The translations under genes were made by a program, and so were the position numbers. This document shows positions 9,706-50,929 of a stretch of DNA of 64,000 nucleotides, piece by piece. The first letter of the stretch is position 1. Every line of letters begins with the position of its first letter. Under the pieces are notes generated by a model, which searched no databases, was not told the origin of the DNA, and saw only the letters and a program-made list of their open reading frames with translations. The stretch is from Candidatus Angelobacter sp. Gp1-AA117 (GTDB taxonomy: Bacteria; Acidobacteriota; Terriglobia; Terriglobales; Acidobacteriaceae), in the NCBI GenBank assembly GCA_003223515.1, contig QHVI01000019.1, positions 1-64,000 on the forward strand, in the 5' to 3' direction.

Positions 9706-12039
9706 TTAGTATCTGAACAGATATGAGAGTTTCACAAACACCTGCCGTCCATCGTTGAGGAAGGTGCGCCGGGTACGCAGCAGGCCGTCAGGCGTGGAAG
9801 CCAATGACGGATCAAGATTCTGAAGATCGCTGTTATATCCCACGTAAATGGCAGTCCCGGGATTCAGAAGATAGGTAAACAGCACGTCTCCATTGAACTG
9901 CTTGGTGTTCTGCAGGGTCGTGAGGGCCGGATTGGAGATGGTGGTCACATACTGCCCGATCAGGCGCAGGGAGAATTCCTTAGTGAACTGGTAGTTCCAC
10001 TTAGACCGCGCGATGTGATTGGTAAAGATATTCAGGCTGGTATCGCGATCGATGAACCGGGTAAGAAAATAGGCATTTTCAATCGTAAGGCTCTTCGTGG
10101 GACGCACGGTCGCCCGCAACTCAGCATTATTGTTATAAGCCAAGGTAGGCCCCCCGGCGCGCGGGACAAAGTTGGTTGCCGTCCCCCAGTCCATTTCGCC
10201 ATTCACATTGAGCCATTTCCAGAACTGTGTGCCTGCATCGATTCCGCCGTTGACATGGGCATAGTCCACATTCCGGGTAAGCGCCGAGAAATCGACGGGC
10301 CGCAGCCGTTCGTGCTCAAGGCCTGTGACAACCGTGAAAAAGCTGTTCCGGTGGAAGTTCCAGCGATAAGAAGGATTGAGGGTGTAGCCCAGGAAGTTGT
10401 GCTCGTGGTCCCAGAAGGTCTGTTCAAAAAAGGCCGGGCCATGGGAAAGCAGATGCTCGCCTTCCGGATGGAAGGTGTAATTCGCAAAATTGCTGAAGCG
10501 ACGATAGTCAACGCGGTTGACGAAACCGGTGTCGGCTTCGAACCCGGGAGAGACGTCGAGAAACAGCGAATTGAATTCCACGTTGCGGGAGCTGCGTTCA
10601 ACGTAAGCCTGGTAAGCCGGCCCCGCGCGGTGTGTGCCGTCATTGAATCTGGTCTCGCTGGTTACCGCCTGCGCATTCATTTGCCAGTTGCTTCCCATCT
10701 TCATCTGTATATCAAAGCCGCCCACGCGGTTGAACCCAACCGAACACTCATGCAATGTGCAGAAGCTGCCGGGATTGGTATGCAGTTCGCGGTCGGTATA
10801 GATGAAGCCGATGCTGTTGTTCTTTCCGATTTCGCGATTGAGCCGGAAGATGCTGAAGTACGCGTTGTTTCTAAACAAAGGGTCGCCTTCGAGCACGGTC
10901 TTGCCGGGCGCCTGATCGTTAGCCACTAAAGTGCCGATTGCCCATTTATCAAGCTTGCCGGTCAGCCGCACTCCATAAAGAGGATTCACGATGCGGCGGG
11001 TAAACACCAGATTCAGCGGCGTGGAAAAATAGCTGGCGTTCTCCTGGAAAAAAGGCCGCTTTTCGGGGAAGAAGACCTCGAAGCGCTGGTTTACTGTGAC
11101 CTGCGGGTCATCGGATTCGACCTGCCCGAAATCGGGATTGACGGTGGTGTCCAGCACCAGGCTATCTTTAATAACAATCTTGGAATCAAGACCGGCTTTC
11201 GGTTCCACATGTTTGCCGGTGAAGCGCTCCCCTGCGGGATTGCGGTCGTCAAGGCCGCGAAATGCCCGCACGGCTGTATACGGGATGAACTGCATGTTTC
11301 TGCCCGGCGAGATGCCTTCGAAGCCCTGAATCTTGGCAGCCTGACGCAACGTGCCCTGAATGCGGCTGGTATTTTGCGGGTAATAAGCGCGTTCGCCGTT
11401 GCGGGCAATCACGCGGGCCAGCATCACACCCCAGATCTGAGGCGATCTTTGAGAAAAGCGCAGGGACTTGAAAGGAATTTCAAACCACACCATGTAGCCG
11501 TGGCTGGTCACTTTGGCGTCAGTATGCCAGAGGGTGTCAAAGGATGTATCGAAACCCTGATTTTCGGTCAGCAGGAAGTCCTGCTGGATGCCATAAGCAT
11601 TGCTGTAGAAGCCGTAGGCATGGCGTTGATCGTTAAAGGTATCGAGCAACATGCCGACCTGGTCGTCATCATCGATCAATTCACGGCGCAGCATGCGGGC
11701 GCGTATCTTCTGCGGCTCGGTGTCGAAAGCCAGAAAGATGATGTAAATGTTCCTGTTGGTATAACCCAGGTAGGCTTCCGTTCGCTGCGAACACAGCGTG
11801 CCGTCACGCGGATCACGTTGCACAAACTTGTCGACTTTCAGCATCCTGCGGGCAAGCTGGGTGGCAGGCTCCATGCCTTCAAAGTCGGTCAGTCTTGGCG
11901 ATGTTTCCAGCTTAGGGATATCCGGGGAGCCGATCTCAGCCGCAAGCACCGGCCGTTCCTTGACTGCAACCGGCTGCTGGGCCGCCACGGCGGCGCACAA
12001 CAACAGGATCACCGAAACAAAACATCGCAGCGAAAGCAA
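9706..12039 (-). CDS. DUF5916-type outer-membrane protein with a CBM9-like N-terminal domain
   Basis: The product is a large exported protein of about 777 residues. A TTG at 12039 preceded by GGGAG gives a compact signal peptide (LLSLRCFVSVILLLCAAVAAQQ); the ORF-track start at 12087 adds 16 unlikely residues. Residues 50-230 look like a carbohydrate-binding family 9-like beta domain (TEAYLGYTNRNIYIIFLAFD, WFEIPFKSLRFS). The rest is a beta-barrel rich in aromatic strands that ends in VKLSYLFRY, a typical outer-membrane C-terminal phenylalanine/aromatic signature. The family is frequent in Acidobacteria and Bacteroidetes and is thought to act in surface binding or uptake. The ligand is unknown. 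Confidence 0.88.
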   Translation of the reverse strand: MLSLRCFVSVILLLCAAVAAQQPVAVKERPVLAAEIGSPDIPKLETSPRLTDFEGMEPATQLARRMLKVDKFVQRDPRDGTLCSQRTEAYLGYTNRNIYIIFLAFDTEPQKIRARMLRRELIDDDDQVGMLLDTFNDQRHAYGFYSNAYGIQQDFLLTENQGFDTSFDTLWHTDAKVTSHGYMVWFEIPFKSLRFSQRSPQIWGVMLARVIARNGERAYYPQNTSRIQGTLRQAAKIQGFEGISPGRNMQFIPYTAVRAFRGLDDRNPAGERFTGKHVEPKAGLDSKIVIKDSLVLDTTVNPDFGQVESDDPQVTVNQRFEVFFPEKRPFFQENASYFSTPLNLVFTRRIVNPLYGVRLTGKLDKWAIGTLVANDQAPGKTVLEGDPLFRNNAYFSIFRLNREIGKNNSIGFIYTDRELHTNPGSFCTLHECSVGFNRVGGFDIQMKMGSNWQMNAQAVTSETRFNDGTHRAGPAYQAYVERSSRNVEFNSLFLDVSPGFEADTGFVNRVDYRRFSNFANYTFHPEGEHLLSHGPAFFEQTFWDHEHNFLGYTLNPSYRWNFHRNSFFTVVTGLEHERLRPVDFSALTRNVDYAHVNGGIDAGTQFWKWLNVNGEMDWGTATNFVPRAGGPTLAYNNNAELRATVRPTKSLTIENAYFLTRFIDRDTSLNIFTNHIARSKWNYQFTKEFSLRLIGQYVTTISNPALTTLQNTKQFNGDVLFTYLLNPGTAIYVGYNSDLQNLDPSLASTPDGLLRTRRTFLNDGRQVFVKLSYLFRY

Positions 12040-38859: not shown

Positions 38860-39696
38860 TCATTTTCGTCCGGTATACCGGTTCAATACTTCAAGGATCC
38901 CTGAGACCAGCATGGCGGGGGTTGGCGGACATCCGGGAATATAACCATGGACGGGAAGAAGCGAGTCAACGGGGCCGATGATCTCCTCGTTCAAGTTGAC
39001 AAGAGTTCCCACCGGGCAATTGCGCCGGTCAAAGATCCCACCGCTACAACCGCACGCTCCTACAGCTACCACTAATTTGGGTAATGGCACCGCCTCATAG
39101 GTTTTCTGCACTGCCGTGGCCATGTTGCGGGTCACGGGACCGGTAATGAGCAACATGTCAGCATGCTTTGGCGATGCTACAAAATGAATTCCAAAACGCT
39201 CCAGGTCGTAATATGGATTGGTGAGGGCCGTTATCTCCGCCTCGCATCCATTGCAAGAGCCGGGATCGAGTTGGCGGATATTCAAGGCCCTTCCCAGCAA
39301 AGCGTACACGCGGTCCCGAGCAGAGGTGTGCATTTCTCCGGCCTGTGCCTCAACTCCTGAACCAGTTTGCCAAGTCTGGACCAGTTCGCTTCGCGAAACA
39401 CCAGAATGTGAAAACCGTTTCGCTGGACGGATGGCCCCGTCTCCGACTTCGACACATCGTCCGCAGCCAATACACTTTCCGTAATCTAAACGCAAAGCAC
39501 AGCCGCCTTCAACAGGTGTGTCAGTGGTGATGGCACGCGTGGGACAGACTTCTGCGGCGGCGGCCGCGATCGGGGCAGTCAACAATTCCGGTATAATTTC
39601 CGGCATTCGGCTTCCGGCACAATCGCGAATCAGATCTTCGACGGGAATCAACTGAGAACGGCTCCGCAAACTATGAAACATCACATCAGTAATCAT
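38860..39696 (-). CDS. Ferredoxin-NuoB/HyfI fusion subunit of the hydrogenase-4-like complex
   Basis: The product has 278 residues and fuses two electron-transfer modules that are separate (HyfH and HyfI) in E. coli. The N-terminal part (about 35-95) has EVCPTRAI and CIGCGRC, enough ligands for only one [4Fe-4S] cluster; a second cluster's set is missing. The C-terminal part is NuoB-like and keeps the cysteines for the N2-type cluster: GSCNGCEAEI, GACGCSGG and GCPPTPA. It overlaps hyfG by 4 bp and closes the operon. It would pass electrons between the soluble donor and the large subunit. Confidence 0.93.
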   Translation of the reverse strand: MITDVMFHSLRSRSQLIPVEDLIRDCAGSRMPEIIPELLTAPIAAAAAEVCPTRAITTDTPVEGGCALRLDYGKCIGCGRCVEVGDGAIRPAKRFSHSGVSRSELVQTWQTGSGVEAQAGEMHTSARDRVYALLGRALNIRQLDPGSCNGCEAEITALTNPYYDLERFGIHFVASPKHADMLLITGPVTRNMATAVQKTYEAVPLPKLVVAVGACGCSGGIFDRRNCPVGTLVNLNEEIIGPVDSLLPVHGYIPGCPPTPAMLVSGILEVLNRYTGRK

Positions 39697-41159
39697 CGGT
39701 CACACCCGGAATAAGAAAGATTGAAACTCTTATTAATCAAAGGAAAATCGGCGATGATGTTTCCTGTGACCGCAAACGGAAGCGCCGGCCAGTTCTGAAA
39801 CGATGGCGACCGGACGTGACACCGGGCGATCTTGCCTTCTTCGACTCGCAGCCAATAGACCAACTCGCCGCGTGGCGCTTCAACTGCGGCAAAGGCCCTG
39901 CCGGTTGAGATTGCCGGCAGCGGAAGCCAGATGGGGCCTGCGGGCAGGGCTTCGAGATAATCCAGAAGCAGCCGGGCGGACGCATGGACTTCCATCATCC
40001 GGATGCGGGCACGCGCCATGACATCGCCATAATGCCAGGTTGGAACATCAAAGTTTAAATTCTTGTAAGCGCCGTAAGGGTGGTCCCGCCTGACGTCAAG
40101 AGCTATTCCACAAGCTCTCGCGACTGGACCGACCACGGCCAGATCGGCAGCTCGATTGGGGGCAAGAATGCCAGCTCCCTCGAAACGGTCTTCCAGCGAA
40201 GGCGTACGCAAGGCTTGCTCTGCGATGCCAACAAAGTCTTCTACAGCGATGCGAATCGATTCTTTGAGTTCCCGGCCATCGGCGCTGCCAATCTCGTGCC
40301 GCACGCCGCCAGGAACTGCTACACCGCGCCAGTACCTGGTACCCACAATCTTTGCTGAAGCCTGAAGCAGGTCTTCCTTGATCCGGGCACAATAGGCGGC
40401 GGGAACCGCGAAGCCGACGTCGCCGCAGAGCGCTCCGAGATCGCCAATGTGGGCCAGCAATCTTTCGAGCTCGAGTCCGATGAGCCGTATGGCATTGGCT
40501 TTGGGCGGAACGATTGCCTGATGCACTCCTTCGACGGCCTGGCAATAGGCAACCGCATGGGCAAAGCAGTTATCGCCAGAGACAGATTCAGCAATCGGAA
40601 CAGCATCCGTGGCGACTCTGCCCTCAAAGAGTTTCTCTGTGCCCTTATGCGTATAGAAAAGCCGAAGCTGAAGGTGCAGGACAGTATCGCCGACCACGCT
40701 AAAACGAAAATGACCTGGCTCGATGATCCCAGCATGCACCGGACCCACCGGGATTTCACAAACTCCCTCGCCTTGAACTCTCAGAAACTGGGATTCTTCC
40801 ATTTCCTGGGTACTTCCGTTTGAGGGTAGCCCTGAGTCAAACCTGCTATGGCGCATCAGTGGCCGGAGATGTGGATGGCCAATAAATTCAACTCCGTACT
40901 GCTCGTGGACTTCCCGCTCATGCCATGAGGCTGCCGGCGCTACTGGGGTCATAGAGCGAACCGGACCCGCCACAACGTATTCAAAATCCCCATAACCGGC
41001 CCCTGGCAAATCCACCAGATAATGCAAGATGGTTGTGCCGCCAGTGTTGTCACCAAAAATAGAGACCAGGCGGCCTGTGAACCGCCTATCGGCATCGAGA
41101 GGCAAAGCTTCGTTCCTGCCACTCTCCGGACCCCATTGATTTGCTGCGTTGCCTTTCAT
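39693..41159 (-). CDS. hyfG: NuoCD/HyfG-like large subunit without [NiFe] ligands
   Basis: The product has 488 residues. The N-terminal NuoC-like domain has SWHEREVHEQYGVEF, the rest is NuoD/HycE-like (PVGPVHAGIIEPGHFRF). In [NiFe] hydrogenases the L1 motif is RVCGICGFAH; here it is ESVSGDNCFAH, both cysteines lost. The L2 motif DPCxxC near the C-terminus is NLSYSGC here. The active site therefore cannot hold NiFe, as in complex I NuoD and the Ehr-type complexes. It may bind a quinone or another ligand at this pocket. Both ends overlap their neighbours by 4 bp. Confidence 0.95.
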   Translation of the reverse strand: MKGNAANQWGPESGRNEALPLDADRRFTGRLVSIFGDNTGGTTILHYLVDLPGAGYGDFEYVVAGPVRSMTPVAPAASWHEREVHEQYGVEFIGHPHLRPLMRHSRFDSGLPSNGSTQEMEESQFLRVQGEGVCEIPVGPVHAGIIEPGHFRFSVVGDTVLHLQLRLFYTHKGTEKLFEGRVATDAVPIAESVSGDNCFAHAVAYCQAVEGVHQAIVPPKANAIRLIGLELERLLAHIGDLGALCGDVGFAVPAAYCARIKEDLLQASAKIVGTRYWRGVAVPGGVRHEIGSADGRELKESIRIAVEDFVGIAEQALRTPSLEDRFEGAGILAPNRAADLAVVGPVARACGIALDVRRDHPYGAYKNLNFDVPTWHYGDVMARARIRMMEVHASARLLLDYLEALPAGPIWLPLPAISTGRAFAAVEAPRGELVYWLRVEEGKIARCHVRSPSFQNWPALPFAVTGNIIADFPLINKSFNLSYSGCDR

Positions 41160-42619
41160 TGCAGCACCGCCACAGCTGCCTTCAGCAGGTAATTCAAAGG
41201 CGCTGGAATGCTGAGGCCGAGCGTGATCAGCACAGCAACACAGATTCCCATGGCGACGAATTCCGGACCTTTTCTGTCACTCACAGCGGTCTTGCTTTCC
41301 GCCATCTGGGAAGATCCAGGGAGTACCTTCAGGAAGTGAAAGGTCATCGCCGCGAACACAATGGACAGAGTTGTTAAGAGCACAAGGGCTGCAAGCCAGT
41401 GTCTTTGGCTAAAGGCCTCTCGCAGGATTGAGAACTCGCTAACGAATAGTCCGAAGGGAGGCAGACCAACAATCGCGATCAGTCCCACCACCAGCGCAGC
41501 ACTGGTCCAGGGGAGCTGGCGTGCAAGCCCCTTGAGCATGGAGATTTTCGATGTGCCTACCATCTCCCGTACCTGGCCCGCGCCGAAGAACAGAAGTGAT
41601 TTCGCCATGGAATGAGTAAAAGTGTGAAGGAGAGCGCCATAAATTCCGAAAAAGCCGCCGAGCCCCAGGCCTGTAGCAATGATGCCCATGTGCTCGACGC
41701 TGCTATACGCAAGGAGCCGCTTCAAATCTTTTTGCACGATCATCAGAAGTCCGGCTACAAACACGGAAGCCGCGCCAAAGAAGATGAAAAGGCGGTGACT
41801 GAAAGTAGCGCCAATCGCGTTGGAGGTGATCGCGTCATACCGGATTAACGCGTAGACTGCACAATTCAGGAGCGCAGCGGAGAGCATAGCGCTAACAGGC
41901 GAGGGAGCCTCGGCATGGGCATCCGGCAACCAACTGTGCATGGGAACGAGTCCTATCTTAGTGCCATAGCCCACCAGCAGAAAAATAAATCCTAGTTTGA
42001 GAAGAGCGGGGGAGTTCGCAAGCATTTTCCCGGCGTGCGCCAGCGCGTACCACTGCAACGCCATTTCCGGCTGTAAGCCGGCATGGACAGCAGCAACATA
42101 GAAGACAATGGTTCCAAAGAGGGCAAATGCCAGGCCGACAGTGCACACGATCAGGTACTTCCAGCCGGCCTCAACCGCTCCTTCAGTGTTGTAGAACCCG
42201 ACTAAGAGAGCCGAGGCCAATGTAGTCGCTTCCATCATGATCCAAAGAAAGCCAAGATTGCCGGCAAGGTAAACGGCAATAATGCTGAATAAGAACAAAA
42301 ACAATAAGGAATAGAACCAGCGCGGCGAGGAAAATCTTCCCGCCGGAATGTGGCGAATGTAGCTGGTTGAGTAGAGCAAAACCAGGAAAAATACTGCGCC
42401 AAGATTGACAAGAAAAAATGCCGTTAAAGAGTCTGCGCGAAGATATTTGCCCAATTCCAGACTGCTTGTCCTGGAGATTCGCCAGACTGCAAGAGCCAGA
42501 GCAAGAACTTCCAGAATGCCAGCCCCAAGGGCAAATGAGGTAGCGGCTCGCCGCGATTTGAACATCAGGACAAGTCCTGCAGCAGCGGCCGGCATGAACA
42601 GGATCGACGCAAGTAACAT
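41156..42619 (-). CDS. hyfF: Antiporter-like membrane subunit HyfF/NuoN type
   Basis: The product has 487 residues with about 14 transmembrane helices and is homologous to MrpD-type proton/cation translocators. The conserved glutamate helix (WIMMEATTLASALLVGFYN), the lysine helix (YGTKIGLVPMHSWLPDAHAEAPSPVSAM) and the second lysine region KDLKRLLAYSSVEHMG are all present. It should therefore be able to pump ions. It starts 3 bp after hyfE and overlaps hyfG by 4 bp. The membrane arm of the complex has two such subunits (this one and HyfB). Confidence 0.94.
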   Translation of the reverse strand: MLLASILFMPAAAAGLVLMFKSRRAATSFALGAGILEVLALALAVWRISRTSSLELGKYLRADSLTAFFLVNLGAVFFLVLLYSTSYIRHIPAGRFSSPRWFYSLLFLFLFSIIAVYLAGNLGFLWIMMEATTLASALLVGFYNTEGAVEAGWKYLIVCTVGLAFALFGTIVFYVAAVHAGLQPEMALQWYALAHAGKMLANSPALLKLGFIFLLVGYGTKIGLVPMHSWLPDAHAEAPSPVSAMLSAALLNCAVYALIRYDAITSNAIGATFSHRLFIFFGAASVFVAGLLMIVQKDLKRLLAYSSVEHMGIIATGLGLGGFFGIYGALLHTFTHSMAKSLLFFGAGQVREMVGTSKISMLKGLARQLPWTSAALVVGLIAIVGLPPFGLFVSEFSILREAFSQRHWLAALVLLTTLSIVFAAMTFHFLKVLPGSSQMAESKTAVSDRKGPEFVAMGICVAVLITLGLSIPAPLNYLLKAAVAVLQ

Positions 42620-42622
42620 GAC

Positions 42623-43285
42623 TCAGCCCCTTAGCCCCCGCAGCCTGGAAACATCCAAATGATCAAAGGTGTCGCGGATTCGAAATACAAAGATGCCCAT
42701 CAGGAACAAGCCGATCAGTAAATCAAAGACAATTCCGATTTCAATGATCAAAGGCATGCCAAAAGTGGTGACCAGGGCCGCCAGGAAAATCCCATTTTCA
42801 AGAACCAGAAGCCCCATCATCAGCATCAAAGCTTTCGACCGGGTCACCATCAGGAACGCACCGTTGAGGATGAGGGCAACCGCCGCTGCCAGGATGACTT
42901 CTGTAGCGTGCAGCTCGATGAGATAGAGGCGCACTGCGGCGAAGGAAAGAATAATCAAGCCTGACATTACAAATACCGAATAACCCGGGCTCAGTGATGC
43001 GCCAACATCATGCGCAGTGCGAAGTTTCTTCATCAGCCAGAGAAGCGCAAAAGGAATGGCAAAAACCTTGACCAACAACACCATTCCAGCAATGATGTAT
43101 GCCTCTCGCATGTGCTGCACGTAGCCAGCCGCAACCACCTCCGCAGTGAGAATCGCTGACTGGCAGGCGAACAGATAGACGCACGTAGAAATCCTCTTGG
43201 CTGTGGCCATGAGAAGGACCGTGCCGAACAACAACATCGCGGCTGAACTCAACATCTTGGCTGCAGCCAGTTCAAAAAGTCCCAT
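42623..43285 (-). CDS. hyfE: Membrane subunit HyfE (NuoK-like)
   Basis: The product has 220 residues and about seven helices. The C-terminal half resembles NuoK/MrpC (MMGLLVLENGIFLAALVTTFGMP) with the glutamate of the LLVLENG helix. The N-terminal half is the extra segment found in hydrogenase-4 HyfE. Its length matches E. coli HyfE. The spacers are 5 bp from hyfC and 3 bp to hyfF. It is part of the ion-translocating arm. Confidence 0.92.
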   Translation of the reverse strand: MGLFELAAAKMLSSAAMLLFGTVLLMATAKRISTCVYLFACQSAILTAEVVAAGYVQHMREAYIIAGMVLLVKVFAIPFALLWLMKKLRTAHDVGASLSPGYSVFVMSGLIILSFAAVRLYLIELHATEVILAAAVALILNGAFLMVTRSKALMLMMGLLVLENGIFLAALVTTFGMPLIIEIGIVFDLLIGLFLMGIFVFRIRDTFDHLDVSRLRGLRG

Positions 43286-43290
43286 GCTTT

Positions 43291-44235
43291 TTACCTCTTG
43301 GTTATCGCGGTAAAGATTACGGCCAAAATCGCCAACGCCGAGGCAACGCGAAGAAAATCAGGTACGGCATACATCCGTAATTTCGCGACGCTGCTCTCGA
43401 CGACGGCCAGGCCAATTACAAGACAGGCGAGCTTCAGAGCGTAAGTACCCAGGGCAGCGGCGAGGCCCAGCGGAGTGACCGTCAGAGACATCCCCCACGG
43501 GGCAAAAAGACCGATCATGAGCGTAGCCAGCAAATTCAGTTTGATGGCCTGAGACCACTCGATCAACGCGAGACTGGGTCCTGAGTACTCCAGCACCATC
43601 GCTTCATGAATCATGGTCAACTCCAGGTGCGTTGTTGGGTTGTCCACTGGGATGCGTCCGGTTTCCGCAACGGCAACGATTGCGAGAGCGGCCAATGCCA
43701 GAAGGTGCACTGTAGAGACGTCAAAGAAGTTTTGACGAATTGTCCAAGCGGCGATTTCACTCAGGCTTCCAGTCCTGGCAAGAATCGCGAGCGCAGTGAG
43801 CACCAGGAACAATGGCGCTTCTGCCAATGCCGCCACTAACGCTTCCCGGCTCGAACCCATCCCACCAAAGGAACTTCCGCCATCCAATGCCCCAAGGGAC
43901 ATCGCAAACCGGCCTATAGCCAGCAGATAGACAAACAGGAAAATATCGCCGTCAAGTGTGAGGAACGCGGCCGGGTGCAACACCGGCAAAAAGGCCGCAG
44001 CCACTACAGTCGCGGCGAACGCAACGACAGGCGCCGAGCGGAAGATCAAGGTAGCTGTGTTGGGAACCAGTTCTTCTTTGTGGAAAAGCTTCCACAGGTT
44101 CGCATAGGGTCGCCAGACACTTGCACCCTGGCGTTTCTGAATCCAGGCTTTCAGCTTGCTGATAATGCCACGCAATAGAGGCGCCGCAAGAACAAGGAGC
44201 AGCATCTGCACGATGTTGATGACGAAGCCCATCAT
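43291..44235 (-). CDS. hyfC: Membrane subunit HyfC (NuoH-like)
   Basis: The product has 314 residues and about eight helices. The NuoH-like signatures are LKAWIQKRQGASVWRPYANLWKLFHKE near the N-terminus and the charged loop GRIPVDNPTTHLELTMIHEAM. NuoH-type subunits link the peripheral arm to the membrane arm and hold the acidic residues of the quinone or proton channel (EDNPxTHLELTM type). It overlaps hyfB by 4 bp (ATGA), so it is translationally coupled. Confidence 0.94.
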   Translation of the reverse strand: MMGFVINIVQMLLLVLAAPLLRGIISKLKAWIQKRQGASVWRPYANLWKLFHKEELVPNTATLIFRSAPVVAFAATVVAAAFLPVLHPAAFLTLDGDIFLFVYLLAIGRFAMSLGALDGGSSFGGMGSSREALVAALAEAPLFLVLTALAILARTGSLSEIAAWTIRQNFFDVSTVHLLALAALAIVAVAETGRIPVDNPTTHLELTMIHEAMVLEYSGPSLALIEWSQAIKLNLLATLMIGLFAPWGMSLTVTPLGLAAALGTYALKLACLVIGLAVVESSVAKLRMYAVPDFLRVASALAILAVIFTAITKR

Positions 44236-46244
44236 GCAAACCTCAGCACGACAAGCAGCGACAGAATCACCAGGAATATGTACAGCAAGTAAGTTTGAAT
44301 GTTGCCGGTGTGCAGTCGCCGAAGCTGACGAGCCACCGCCACGACACCATCCACTATTGGGCGGTAGAGCGTTTTTTCAAAAGAAGTAGTACGGACTGAG
44401 CGATAGCTGATATTCACGGGAAAATAAGGCTCGTCCGGTGGCTCGAGATCCATCTTTCGCTCCGGCCGGTAAACAGCCGCAAATACAGACCGCAGAGGTT
44501 TGGAGAAGGAGGTGGCGGTATACTGCATGCGCCCGGTCAGACCGGGCAGACCACACGCCCAGGTATTCACAGAGCGGCTTGCCGGTTTTCTCAAGAGCAG
44601 CACCACGATTACCAGCAACGCAATAGCCGCAGCTACCAAAGGCATCATGCGGGATATGGACGCGATTTCCGGAGGGGACGTCGGGTTTGGGATCATCGTT
44701 CCGGCCAAAACAGAAAGCGGATGAAGAGCGACTCCGGGATGCACCCCAAAAAGAATGCAAGCCGCGGCTATCATCACAAGCGCTAAATTCATGTTTTCAG
44801 GCGCGGCGACCACGTACTTCGCTGCATCGCTCCGGGGTCTGCCCAAAAATGTAATTCCATACAGCTTGACAAAGCAGGCGCAAGCCAGAGCGCTGGTCAG
44901 GGCCACCGCGCCAATGAGCAAGGGAACCGCTGGATCAGGTTCCAAAACAGAGCCGTGGAGCAAGGATTTGAAGATCAGCCACTCGCTGACAAAACCATTC
45001 AGCAAGGGCAACCCAGCGATAGCCGCACAGCCGATGAGAAAACTTATCCCTATGCCTGGAAGACGCGGCAACAGCCCCCCAAGTTCCTCTATGTCGAGCG
45101 TGCCCGTAGTATGCTTAACTGCTCCGGCCCCAAGAAACAGCAATCCTTTGAAAAGCGCATGATTGAGCGTGTGGAAGAGAGCGGCCGTAAGCGAGAGGGC
45201 AGCCAGGATGGGCAAGCCACGCGCTTCAAAGATCAGTGCCAGTCCCAGAGCTACAAAGATGAGTCCGATATTTTCAACGCTACTATAGGCGAGCAACCGT
45301 TTGAGGGTGTGTTCGGCCAGCGCATATAAAATGCCCAATACGGCAGTTACGATGCCCACAACAACGATCAGATATCCCCACCAGATTTGAGGTGTTCCCA
45401 GGATATCGAATGTCAGGCGGATGAACCCATAAATCGCTATTTTCAGCATCACGGCCGACATCAGTGCCGACACAGGGCTTGGAGCTATGCCATGGGCTTT
45501 AGGCAGCCAGAAATGCAGCGGGACAAGGCCCGCCTTCATGCCGAACCCGGCAAACGAGAGAAGGAAGATGACAACCCGCAAGTGTGCTGGAAGACTGCCA
45601 GCGGCCGCACGCATAGCGGCCAGAGTCAACGCAGGTGCATAGGGCACAAACAGCAGGAATGAAGCAAAAACAGCCGCAGCGCCAGCATGCATCATCACGA
45701 GGTAAAGGAACAGGCTGCGTCTCCGGTCTTCGCCATCGCCTTCGATCAGAATGAGACCTGCAGATAAAAGCGTCATCAATTCCCAGCCCACCATGAACGC
45801 AAAGATAGTAGAGGCTACAACCACCAGGACCATGGACAGGATGAAAAGCGCCACTAAGCTCCAGTACCATTTCCAATTCGCGCGGGTATAGTGTTCAGCG
45901 TAGCTCGCGGAAAACAACGCCACAGGTATTCCTAACCCGCAGATCAGCAAGAGGAAGAAGCCGCTCAGTCTGTCCATCGAAAGGCCTAGAGCGAAGGGGA
46001 GATGGCCGGAGTAATCGAGATTGATGGTCCTGCCGTTCAGAAAACAGCTTCCAGCAATACCCAGGCCCAACAACAACGAGCAAATCAGAAATCCCGGGAC
46101 AAATGCTCGAGTCCACCTTCCCTGGCCGGCTAAACCCGCGAAGACCGCTAAAAAAAGCAAACTCGACAGGAAGAGTATAAGTAGAAGCCCGATCAACGAG
46201 GACTCCCGGGAAGGTATTGCCCTGGCCACAAAATCGCAAGGCAA
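44232..46244 (-). CDS. hyfB: Antiporter-like membrane subunit HyfB (NuoL type)
   Basis: The product has 670 residues, close to E. coli HyfB. It is a long MrpA/NuoL-type translocator with about 16 helices. The ion-path residues are FMVGWELMTLLSAG (Glu), KAGLVPLHFWLPKAHGIAPSPVSALMSAVM (Lys) and HTLKRLLAYSSVENIG (Lys). A C-terminal amphipathic helix (YRPIVDGVVAVARQLRRLHTGNIQTYLLYIF) looks like the lateral helix typical of NuoL-like subunits. The start is a TTG/GTG near 46244 and is uncertain. It is the first structural gene after the ArsR regulator, 111 bp away. Confidence 0.94.
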   Translation of the reverse strand: MPCDFVARAIPSRESSLIGLLLILFLSSLLFLAVFAGLAGQGRWTRAFVPGFLICSLLLGLGIAGSCFLNGRTINLDYSGHLPFALGLSMDRLSGFFLLLICGLGIPVALFSASYAEHYTRANWKWYWSLVALFILSMVLVVVASTIFAFMVGWELMTLLSAGLILIEGDGEDRRRSLFLYLVMMHAGAAAVFASFLLFVPYAPALTLAAMRAAAGSLPAHLRVVIFLLSFAGFGMKAGLVPLHFWLPKAHGIAPSPVSALMSAVMLKIAIYGFIRLTFDILGTPQIWWGYLIVVVGIVTAVLGILYALAEHTLKRLLAYSSVENIGLIFVALGLALIFEARGLPILAALSLTAALFHTLNHALFKGLLFLGAGAVKHTTGTLDIEELGGLLPRLPGIGISFLIGCAAIAGLPLLNGFVSEWLIFKSLLHGSVLEPDPAVPLLIGAVALTSALACACFVKLYGITFLGRPRSDAAKYVVAAPENMNLALVMIAAACILFGVHPGVALHPLSVLAGTMIPNPTSPPEIASISRMMPLVAAAIALLVIVVLLLRKPASRSVNTWACGLPGLTGRMQYTATSFSKPLRSVFAAVYRPERKMDLEPPDEPYFPVNISYRSVRTTSFEKTLYRPIVDGVVAVARQLRRLHTGNIQTYLLYIFLVILSLLVVLRFA

Positions 46245-46355
46245 GAAGAGGTGTTCAAACGAACTTTGGGCGGCAGCTTAGCTTTATCAGATGTCATGCT
46301 GTGCGATTTCCTTCTCTTTTTTATGCAGCAATCCAATAGCCTGGACAGAACATCC

Positions 46356-46694
46356 CTAGCTGCCTCCCCCTAAAGGACTTTCCATTTGCGACAGCAGGTC
46401 TTTGACATCAATCAGATGATTATTGAAGATCTCTTTTGCAACATCGAGCAGCCTGAAAACTGTTGCGTCACGGACAGAGTAGTACACGTTTAACCCTTCT
46501 TTACGTCCCGCCACGATATTGCGAGAGCGCAACACGGAAAGCTGCTGCGAAAGCGTGCTCTGCTCAACCTTGAGGTGATTACAAAGCTCATTCACTCCCA
46601 GTTCCCCTTTGCGAAGCGCGTCTAAGACGGCAATTCGCAAGGGATGAGCGAGAGCTTTGAAGAATTCCGCTTTGAACCTTCCAAGATCAGTCAT
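46356..46694 (-). CDS. ArsR-family winged-helix repressor, first gene of the Ehr-like operon
   Basis: The product has 112 residues. The winged HTH reads HPLRIAVLDALRKGELGVNELCNHLKVEQSTLSQQLSVLRSRNIVAGRKEGLNVYYS. It lacks the ELCVCDL metal-binding cysteines of ArsR proper; the only Cys in the recognition region is in NELCNHL, so a metal signal is not suggested. It lies upstream of hyfB on the same strand, so it is likely to control the complex genes and itself. The signal is unknown. Confidence 0.92.
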   Translation of the reverse strand: MTDLGRFKAEFFKALAHPLRIAVLDALRKGELGVNELCNHLKVEQSTLSQQLSVLRSRNIVAGRKEGLNVYYSVRDATVFRLLDVAKEIFNNHLIDVKDLLSQMESPLGGGS

Positions 46695-50170: not shown

Positions 50171-50929
50171 ATGAGCACTGCCATACCGCCGATGCCTGCT
50201 GAAACAGCACCGCGCTTATCTGAACCTGCCCGTGTTATCAACACCTTCATTGCTCCGTCGAAGACCTTCACCGATATATGCCGCAGGCCAAGCTGGGCGG
50301 GTTTCCTGCTGCCATTCGTGCTGGCTTGGATTTTCAGCTTTGGTTATTTCTATACCGTGGACAAGAAGGTCGGCATTGAATCCATCATGACCCAGAATAT
50401 GGAACACATGCCCCAGTTCATCCAGGACGCGATGCAACGTATCCCGCCGGAACAGCAGCAAAAGAGTCTTGAGCGGCAGCGCCGGTCGGTACTCTATTAT
50501 TCGTGGATCAACTACCTCATCATTGGCGCGATAGCGGCGGCCTTATTTATGGTGGCCTTCAACTTCGGTCTGGAAGCAGGCGTTCCTTACAAAAATGCGC
50601 TGACGATCTATTTTTACGCCATGCTGCCGAAGATCTTGTGGGCGCTGCTGGCCATCGTTGTCTTGTACAAAGGCGTGGATCCTGGCGGATTTAATATGGA
50701 AAATCCCGTCACCACCAATATTGGCGCATTCTTTGACCGCTGGACCACGAACAAGCTGTTGTATACATTCCTGTCATTCATTGACATATTCACTATCTGG
50801 TCCGTGATCTTGCTGGCGATTGGATTCATGCGCTCCTCGGCGAAAAAAATCAGTATGGGCGCGGCGTTGGCAGCGGTGATTTGCGTGTATGTTCTGGGAA
50901 TTCTGATCCGCTCGGCGGTGCCGTTCTAA
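50171..50929 (+). CDS. Yip1-domain membrane protein
   Basis: ATG 50171, preceded by AAGGA, is the start; the ORF track begins 60 codons early within thiL. The protein has 252 residues, and five membrane helices are visible (WAGFLLPFVLAWIFSFGYFY, YLIIGAIAAALFMVAFNFGL, ILWALLAIVVLYKG, FIDIFTIWSVILLAIGF, ALAAVICVYVLGILI). The N-terminus reads ETAPRLSEPARVINTFIAPSKTFTDI, the typical bacterial Yip1 lead-in. The role in bacteria is unknown. Confidence 0.88.
   Translation: MSTAIPPMPAETAPRLSEPARVINTFIAPSKTFTDICRRPSWAGFLLPFVLAWIFSFGYFYTVDKKVGIESIMTQNMEHMPQFIQDAMQRIPPEQQQKSLERQRRSVLYYSWINYLIIGAIAAALFMVAFNFGLEAGVPYKNALTIYFYAMLPKILWALLAIVVLYKGVDPGGFNMENPVTTNIGAFFDRWTTNKLLYTFLSFIDIFTIWSVILLAIGFMRSSAKKISMGAALAAVICVYVLGILIRSAVPF

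Follow-up and report, generated by a model that had tools for sequence, protein, structure and literature searches.

An operon for an energy-converting hydrogenase-related (Ehr) complex without a [NiFe] site in Candidatus Angelobacter, and Ehr relatives that also lack the N2 ligands

The window, a stretch of 64,000 nucleotides from Candidatus Angelobacter sp. Gp1-AA117 (contig QHVI01000019.1 of assembly GCA_003223515.1), carries six structural genes on its minus strand, and the reading frames of all six are open. The families assigned to the subunits with Pfam and NCBIfam were those of hydrogenase-4/complex I, and both agreed with the gene names. An earlier sequence-only reading had described hyfB-C-E-F-G and a ferredoxin-NuoB fusion that overlap by 4 bp or lie at most 5 bp apart, and we recovered the same order and spacing. 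The cluster coordinates, 38860-46694, also take in an ArsR gene that was absent from that reading.

46356..46694, minus strand: ArsR/SmtB-family regulator, 112 aa (HTH_5; HTH_metalloreg, 87 bits)
44232..46244, minus strand: HyfB, NuoL-like antiporter subunit, 670 aa (PRK06521, 608 bits)
43291..44235, minus strand: HyfC, NuoH-like subunit, 314 aa, 4-bp overlap with HyfB (PF00146, 1.7e-39)
42623..43285, minus strand: HyfE, small membrane subunit, 220 aa, 5-bp gap to HyfC (PRK11492, 75.9 bits)
41156..42619, minus strand: HyfF, NuoM/N-like antiporter subunit, 487 aa, 3-bp gap to HyfE (PRK06458, 428.6 bits)
39693..41159, minus strand: HyfG/EhrL, 488 aa, 4-bp overlap with HyfF (NuoC and NuoD/hydrogenase-large-subunit domains)
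38860..39696, minus strand: HyfI/EhrS, ferredoxin-NuoB fusion, 278 aa, 4-bp overlap with HyfG (PF01058, 3.6e-31; PF00037, 2e-6)

As had been claimed, the operon is without genes for formate dehydrogenase, hydrogenase maturation or a separate ferredoxin, and no NuoA homologue, HyfD or HyfH was found in it. Formate hydrogenlyase was ruled out, as the operon has neither a formate dehydrogenase nor a HycB/HyfA-type linker. An FdhA-like protein, just below the family cut-off, is encoded away from the operon on contig C11 of the same genome. ARAGORN called a 96-nt tRNA-Asn(att) at window positions 50660-50755, which is probably a false positive given its odd anticodon and length.

HyfG is a NuoC domain, absent from the earlier reading, fused to a NuoD/hydrogenase-large-subunit domain. 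Alignment to E. coli HycE and HyfG bore out the substitutions reported at both ligand sites: the window protein has ESVSGDNC where the E. coli proteins have DRVCGICG (L1) and NLSYSGCDR where they have DPCYSCTDR (L2).

40566..40580, minus strand: L1 position of HyfG, aa 194-198, SGDNC for CGICG (alignment)
39696..39722, minus strand: L2 position of HyfG, aa 480-488, NLSYSGCDR for DPCYSCTDR (alignment)

The four ligand columns are thus S194, N197, S482 and G485, and no [NiFe] ligands were present elsewhere in the aligned protein. HyfG ends right after ...CDR, without the 32-residue C-terminal (maturation) tail of E. coli HycE and HyfG. The replaced L1 and L2 motifs are identical in all clade members having those positions despite an overall identity of about 57-60%, and the replacement is therefore not due to chance. 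HypD was not detected in the window genome (G000; 100% complete, 1% contamination), although it was detected in E. coli and three other controls; the genome should therefore be unable to make a [NiFe] site. The missing ligands and the missing HypD ruled out an active hydrogenase. The best solved relative of HyfG is E. coli HycE (7z0s_E, E 3.3e-66), and the AlphaFold2 model of HyfG (pLDDT 87.8) likewise gave this formate hydrogenlyase subunit as its best fold match (TM 0.88), followed by E. coli NuoCD (0.84). The window complex resembles the group 4a enzymes, formate hydrogenlyase (HycE) and hydrogenase-4 (HyfG), in sequence, fold and membrane subunits, but differs from them by the absence of CGIC/DPCxxC, the C-terminal tail, and formate dehydrogenase, HyfD, HyfH and maturation genes in the operon.

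The small subunit retains the ligands of two clusters, one in each part of the fusion.

39454..39546, minus strand: ferredoxin part, aa 51-81, C51 with C75, C78 and C81, one [4Fe-4S] (alignment)
38929..39255, minus strand: N2 cluster region, aa 148-256, C148, C151, C215 and C256 all kept (alignment)

The ligands of the second ferredoxin cluster are missing, a loss that the earlier reading did not report, and the one-cluster ligand set is kept in all seven sequences aligned. The fold of the fusion was poorly predicted (pLDDT 54). About 11 extra residues (the DRRNCPVGTLVNLNEE region) occur in the NuoB part, at approximately 38977-39018, and are absent from six aligned relatives.

A scan of GTDB genomes, run with an alignment of close relatives, yielded at least 572 relatives, which are MAG-based, and 80 loci were kept as a sample. 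The scan used the patterns HAG[IT]IEPG and NKSFNLSY, so that the near-invariance of these peptides in the scanned set is partly by construction; in 14 relatives gathered free of the patterns, both peptides likewise showed little or no variation (I145 varies; S482 is kept in at least 90%). The set contains the Ehr-bearing Nitrospira moscoviensis (L070) and a member of the Geobacteraceae (Geomonas, L118), which identifies the window operon as Ehr. In a tree rooted on NuoD by assumption and made with the ligand columns left out, the Ehr sequences formed one family (100/100) apart from HycE, Mbh and NuoD. The phylogeny that had been suggested as a check on HyfG placed the window protein in this family, together with N. 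moscoviensis L070 in a fully cysteine-less clade of 38 rows (100/99). Ehr had been described as lying between complex I and group-4 hydrogenases, which the tree contradicts: with the NuoD root, Ehr falls within the group-4 side, nearest HycE/HyfG (80/63), and Mbh branches further out (99/96). Judged by its ligands and its relatives, the window complex is an Ehr complex and not a hydrogenase.

Published studies describe Ehr as lacking NiFe ligands and as of unknown function (PMC10284858, PMC6349859, PMC4378227, PMC10432482, PMC7304191). The Ehr of N. moscoviensis has been discussed in a study that found Ehr in about half of Nitrospirales genomes and no rise of its expression with H2 (PMC12342949), and Geobacter Ehr subunits were more abundant on formate (PMC7894505). 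Counting the four-cysteine forms, 93 of 396 Acidobacteriota genomes have a strong Ehr homologue; the distribution is patchy, with Ehr present in four of the nine genomes of the window genus. The genome G029 encodes a pair of distinct Ehr large subunits (L033, L040), of which one falls in clade A, defined below, and the other in a separate clade. A Rhodococcus plasmid operon with the small subunit first (L140) is among the loci gathered, which include no Mycobacterium sequence.

The proposal that Ehr complexes have lost NiFe fits the cysteine-less window complex, but the family is not uniform, since 12 sampled members keep all four cysteines. These four-cysteine forms (from Thermincola, Peptococcaceae and others) share HAGxIEPG and DFPxxNKSF, the gene order and the tail-less large subunit with the window complex, and differ from it in keeping CGxC and ELCYxC; an EhrL of this kind had been described earlier from Desulfotomaculum ruminis (PMC3569383). 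The tail-less subunits are L058, L062, L067, L074-L076, L078, L081, L095, L096, L098 and L117, and HypD was found in eight of the 12 genomes and not in the other four. We rejected HypD as a clean divider of four-cysteine from cysteine-less genomes (present in 18 of 32), as MAG gaps and other hydrogenases blur the comparison. The four-cysteine members interleave with cysteine-less ones and nest with cysteine-less Nitrospirota and a half-ligand member (L079); a single cysteine-less clade was rejected with the ligand columns excluded (delta lnL 106, AU p 8e-15). On this topology, the cysteines were lost more than once, or the loss was partly reversed, and the tree gives no direction for each change.

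Clade A (100/99) unites the window operon with the Acidobacteriota sequences closest to it. HypD was not found in six of the nine clade A genomes checked (the window genome, G008, G039, G045, G047 and G048), four of these six being less than 90% complete. Within the sample C198 occurs only in clade A, whereas C486 is also found in one Nitrospirota clade; each lies one residue after a lost ligand position, of L1 and L2 respectively. In clade A the fused ferredoxin has the ligands of a single [4Fe-4S] cluster. Other Ehr members have two ferredoxin clusters or none, and the one-cluster pattern recurs in clades close by and in three members with four cysteines. The Ehr of Geobacter and Nitrospira is like that of the window in its six core subunits, missing NiFe ligands and intact antiporter modules; clade A differs by its one ferredoxin cluster instead of two (none in Nitrospira), by the C198/C486 pair and by the upstream ArsR. 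The ArsR gene lies upstream of the operon in clade A relatives gathered by genome search, wherever that flank is present. ATATTC or GAATAT was found upstream of it in nine of ten genomes (0.6 expected; a count not reached in 2000 shuffles), and the one genome without either 6-mer there is that of the window. The best of 22 matches of the window ArsR to solved proteins was M. tuberculosis Rv0081 (6jmi, E 1.7e-16), and an ArsR of this kind next to the operon is a likeness to the Rv0081-Rv0087 locus. Rv0081 is reported to regulate a hyf-like, predicted formate hydrogenlyase operon (He et al. 2011, as cited in PMC13284343).

The neighbourhoods of the relatives examined showed no consistently linked gene for a donor, an acceptor or a redox partner. 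In the same-genus genome G003, a SulP-family transporter-like protein is encoded between ArsR and hyfB (L038:16106-17866). The G008 operon lies between cysteine desulfurase-like and MnmA-like genes (L031:1746-2909 and 10842-11981), and that of G007 adjoins a cysteine desulfurase-like gene (L032:16413-17576); neither arrangement is found in the window. The hyfB of G008 is in two frames (L031:3462-5437), possibly from a frameshift or an assembly error. Many non-acidobacterial Ehr loci have a helix-turn-helix protein (MNLTVKDVAALLNVSEKTIYR...) near hyfB (L087, L091, L100, L107, L112, L113, L115, L116, L118, L120, L126 and L128).

The proton-path Lys and Glu residues of the membrane subunits were said to be kept, and conservation across family members agreed, with His residues kept as well. 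HyfB has E155, K237, K268, K366 and E421, conserved in 70-73 of 71-73 members; E130, K154, K221 and K340 of HyfF and the acidic residues E139, E191, D198, E205, E211 and E280 of HyfC are kept by nearly every member, and E163 of HyfE in 76 of 77. We estimated dN/dS by simple pairwise counting and obtained values of 0-0.27 for the closest clade A pair, 0.06-0.20 for a wider clade A pair and 0.03-0.15 between Methanosarcina operons that lack the N2 ligands, the lowest being that of the small subunit (0.03). Purifying selection within the clade A and Methanosarcina operons is strong. The open frames and the dN/dS values ruled out a pseudogene, and the low dN/dS, the intact ion paths and the conserved new pocket residues argue that Ehr complexes work.

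Some relatives have also lost the N2 ligands. At the N2 ligand columns, five Patescibacteria members have D/T-C-D-D, Methanosarcina and Dehalococcoidales have D-T-D-N, and a Planctomycetales member has N-E-E-W. Wider sampling gave such small subunits in 12 Patescibacteria genomes, 19 genomes of one Methanosarcina family, one Dehalococcoidales member and one Planctomycetales member (L106, L111, L122, L123, L125, L077, L127 and L087; L143-L149, L153-L159 and L164-L182), with the motifs GSDN/GSTN ... GDDA ... PGDPP or PGNPP, and the loss requires at least three changes on the large-subunit tree. In the members from Patescibacteria, Methanosarcina and Dehalococcoidales the ferredoxin domain and the NiFe ligands are missing as well; therefore, no recognisable redox cofactor is left in those three groups, although they may still bind cofactors through unusual ligands. 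The key residues of HyfB, HyfF, HyfC and HyfE are identical at almost all positions in members without N2. In four Patescibacteria genomes (L125/L192, L123, L190 and L106) the Ehr genes are next to those of F1 ATP synthase, and in three of these genomes the operon lies downstream of atpD in the same direction. The limited set of literature examined made no mention of Ehr without N2. The description of the window complex as an ion-pumping redox machine fits its N2 and single ferredoxin cluster, but redox chemistry does not define the Ehr family, since in some relatives the N2 ligands are gone as well.

Alignments, tree and residues together supported the picture of an Ehr-type complex with no [NiFe] site and an intact ion path. 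We somewhat favour the view that ion pumping by the window complex would be driven by electrons passed to a substrate other than H2; its donor, substrate, direction and ion are what we infer. Ferredoxin or flavodoxin, as a small and soluble donor of low potential, would dock at the fused half-ferredoxin, and electrons would pass from its cluster through N2 to the former NiFe pocket, lined by SGDN-C and NLSYSG-C, where the substrate would react. The resulting change in the pocket would be relayed via HyfC to the antiporter modules HyfB and HyfF, moving H+ or Na+ one-way or reversibly. Regulation of the operon is probably by an ArsR repressor that recognises an AT-rich operator ahead of the arsR gene. 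In favour of this view count the replaced ligand columns and missing HypD, the retained N2 and ferredoxin ligands, the near-invariant ion path, the purifying selection in clade A, the place in the Ehr clade, the absence of the complex-I quinone residues, and the ArsR linkage with its upstream 6-mer in relatives. Against it count the lack of a consistently linked donor, acceptor or partner gene, the absence of the 6-mer upstream in the window, and the poorly predicted fold of the fused small subunit.

We evaluated several other explanations. It is improbable that the complex is a ferredoxin:quinone oxidoreductase, a complex-I-like machine without the NADH module, although HyfG is homologous to NuoCD and similar in fold, with the TM score of 0.84 given above, and the window complex shares the fold and the ion-path residues, including the antiporter Lys and Glu, with complex I (NuoCD/NuoB/NuoH/NuoL-N). 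HyfG has I146 at the second His of HPSxHG and G195 at the L1 Tyr of NuoD, which we take to be the quinone-ligand residues. Neither position is kept, which makes a role for quinone less likely. The operon is also without the NADH module and NuoA of complex I, and the only other NuoD-type protein of the genome is a NuoD at a separate locus, with Nuo genes around it. Reduction of sulfur or another small molecule at N2 would follow the archaeal MBS sulfane-sulfur reductase, in which sulfane sulfur is reportedly reduced at an Fe-S cluster. The two conserved cysteines beside the clade A pocket and the desulfurase gene adjoining the operon in two relatives would be in keeping with this analogy; however, the pair is restricted to clade A, and cysteine desulfurase and MnmA are a common tRNA-thiolation pair not found beside the window operon, making such a reductase doubtful in our view. 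Finally, the complex might be the decaying remnant of a hydrogenase, nonfunctional and under relaxed selection, as was stated for Geobacter Ehr in a 2026 paper (PMC13194489). The loss of the NiFe ligands and the patchy occurrence within the genus agree with decay, but six open frames, new pocket residues fixed across phyla and strong purifying selection make it highly improbable.

The main rival, and a serious alternative given the cofactor-free relatives, is that the core function of Ehr is independent of redox chemistry. Ion translocation might be coupled to a ligand that is bound, or converted without redox chemistry, in the SGD/NKSFNLSYSG pocket; alternatively, the complex might be a gated cation/proton antiporter. 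The Fe-S clusters would be dispensable and, in the window complex, vestigial or regulatory; we consider this unlikely for the window complex. The replacement of the N2 cysteines, mostly by Asp, Asn or Thr, agrees with such a function, as do the absence of the ferredoxin domain alongside ion-path residues identical at almost all positions in Patescibacteria, Methanosarcina and Dehalococcoidales, the purifying selection in Methanosarcina and the Patescibacteria operons beside ATP synthase genes. These relatives keep the same pocket and ion path, and electron flow may thus not drive the machine, which counts against the electron-driven pump. On the other hand, the window and most relatives retain all N2 ligands, and clade A has lost one ferredoxin cluster but kept precisely the four cysteines of the other, suggesting use; the lineages without N2 may have shifted function independently. 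We regard it as a rather unlikely history that the essential function of the whole family is non-redox, that of a ligand-worked ion machine with a strictly conserved pocket in place of NiFe. Lineages would then have shed NiFe, ferredoxin clusters and sometimes N2, and the window complex, with N2 and one ferredoxin cluster, would be an intermediate.

Ehr complexes are widespread, and the present analysis argues that they work. The family offers a natural series of complexes graded by the number of metal sites, down to none recognisable, in which the need of electron flow for ion movement in a relative of complex I can be tested.
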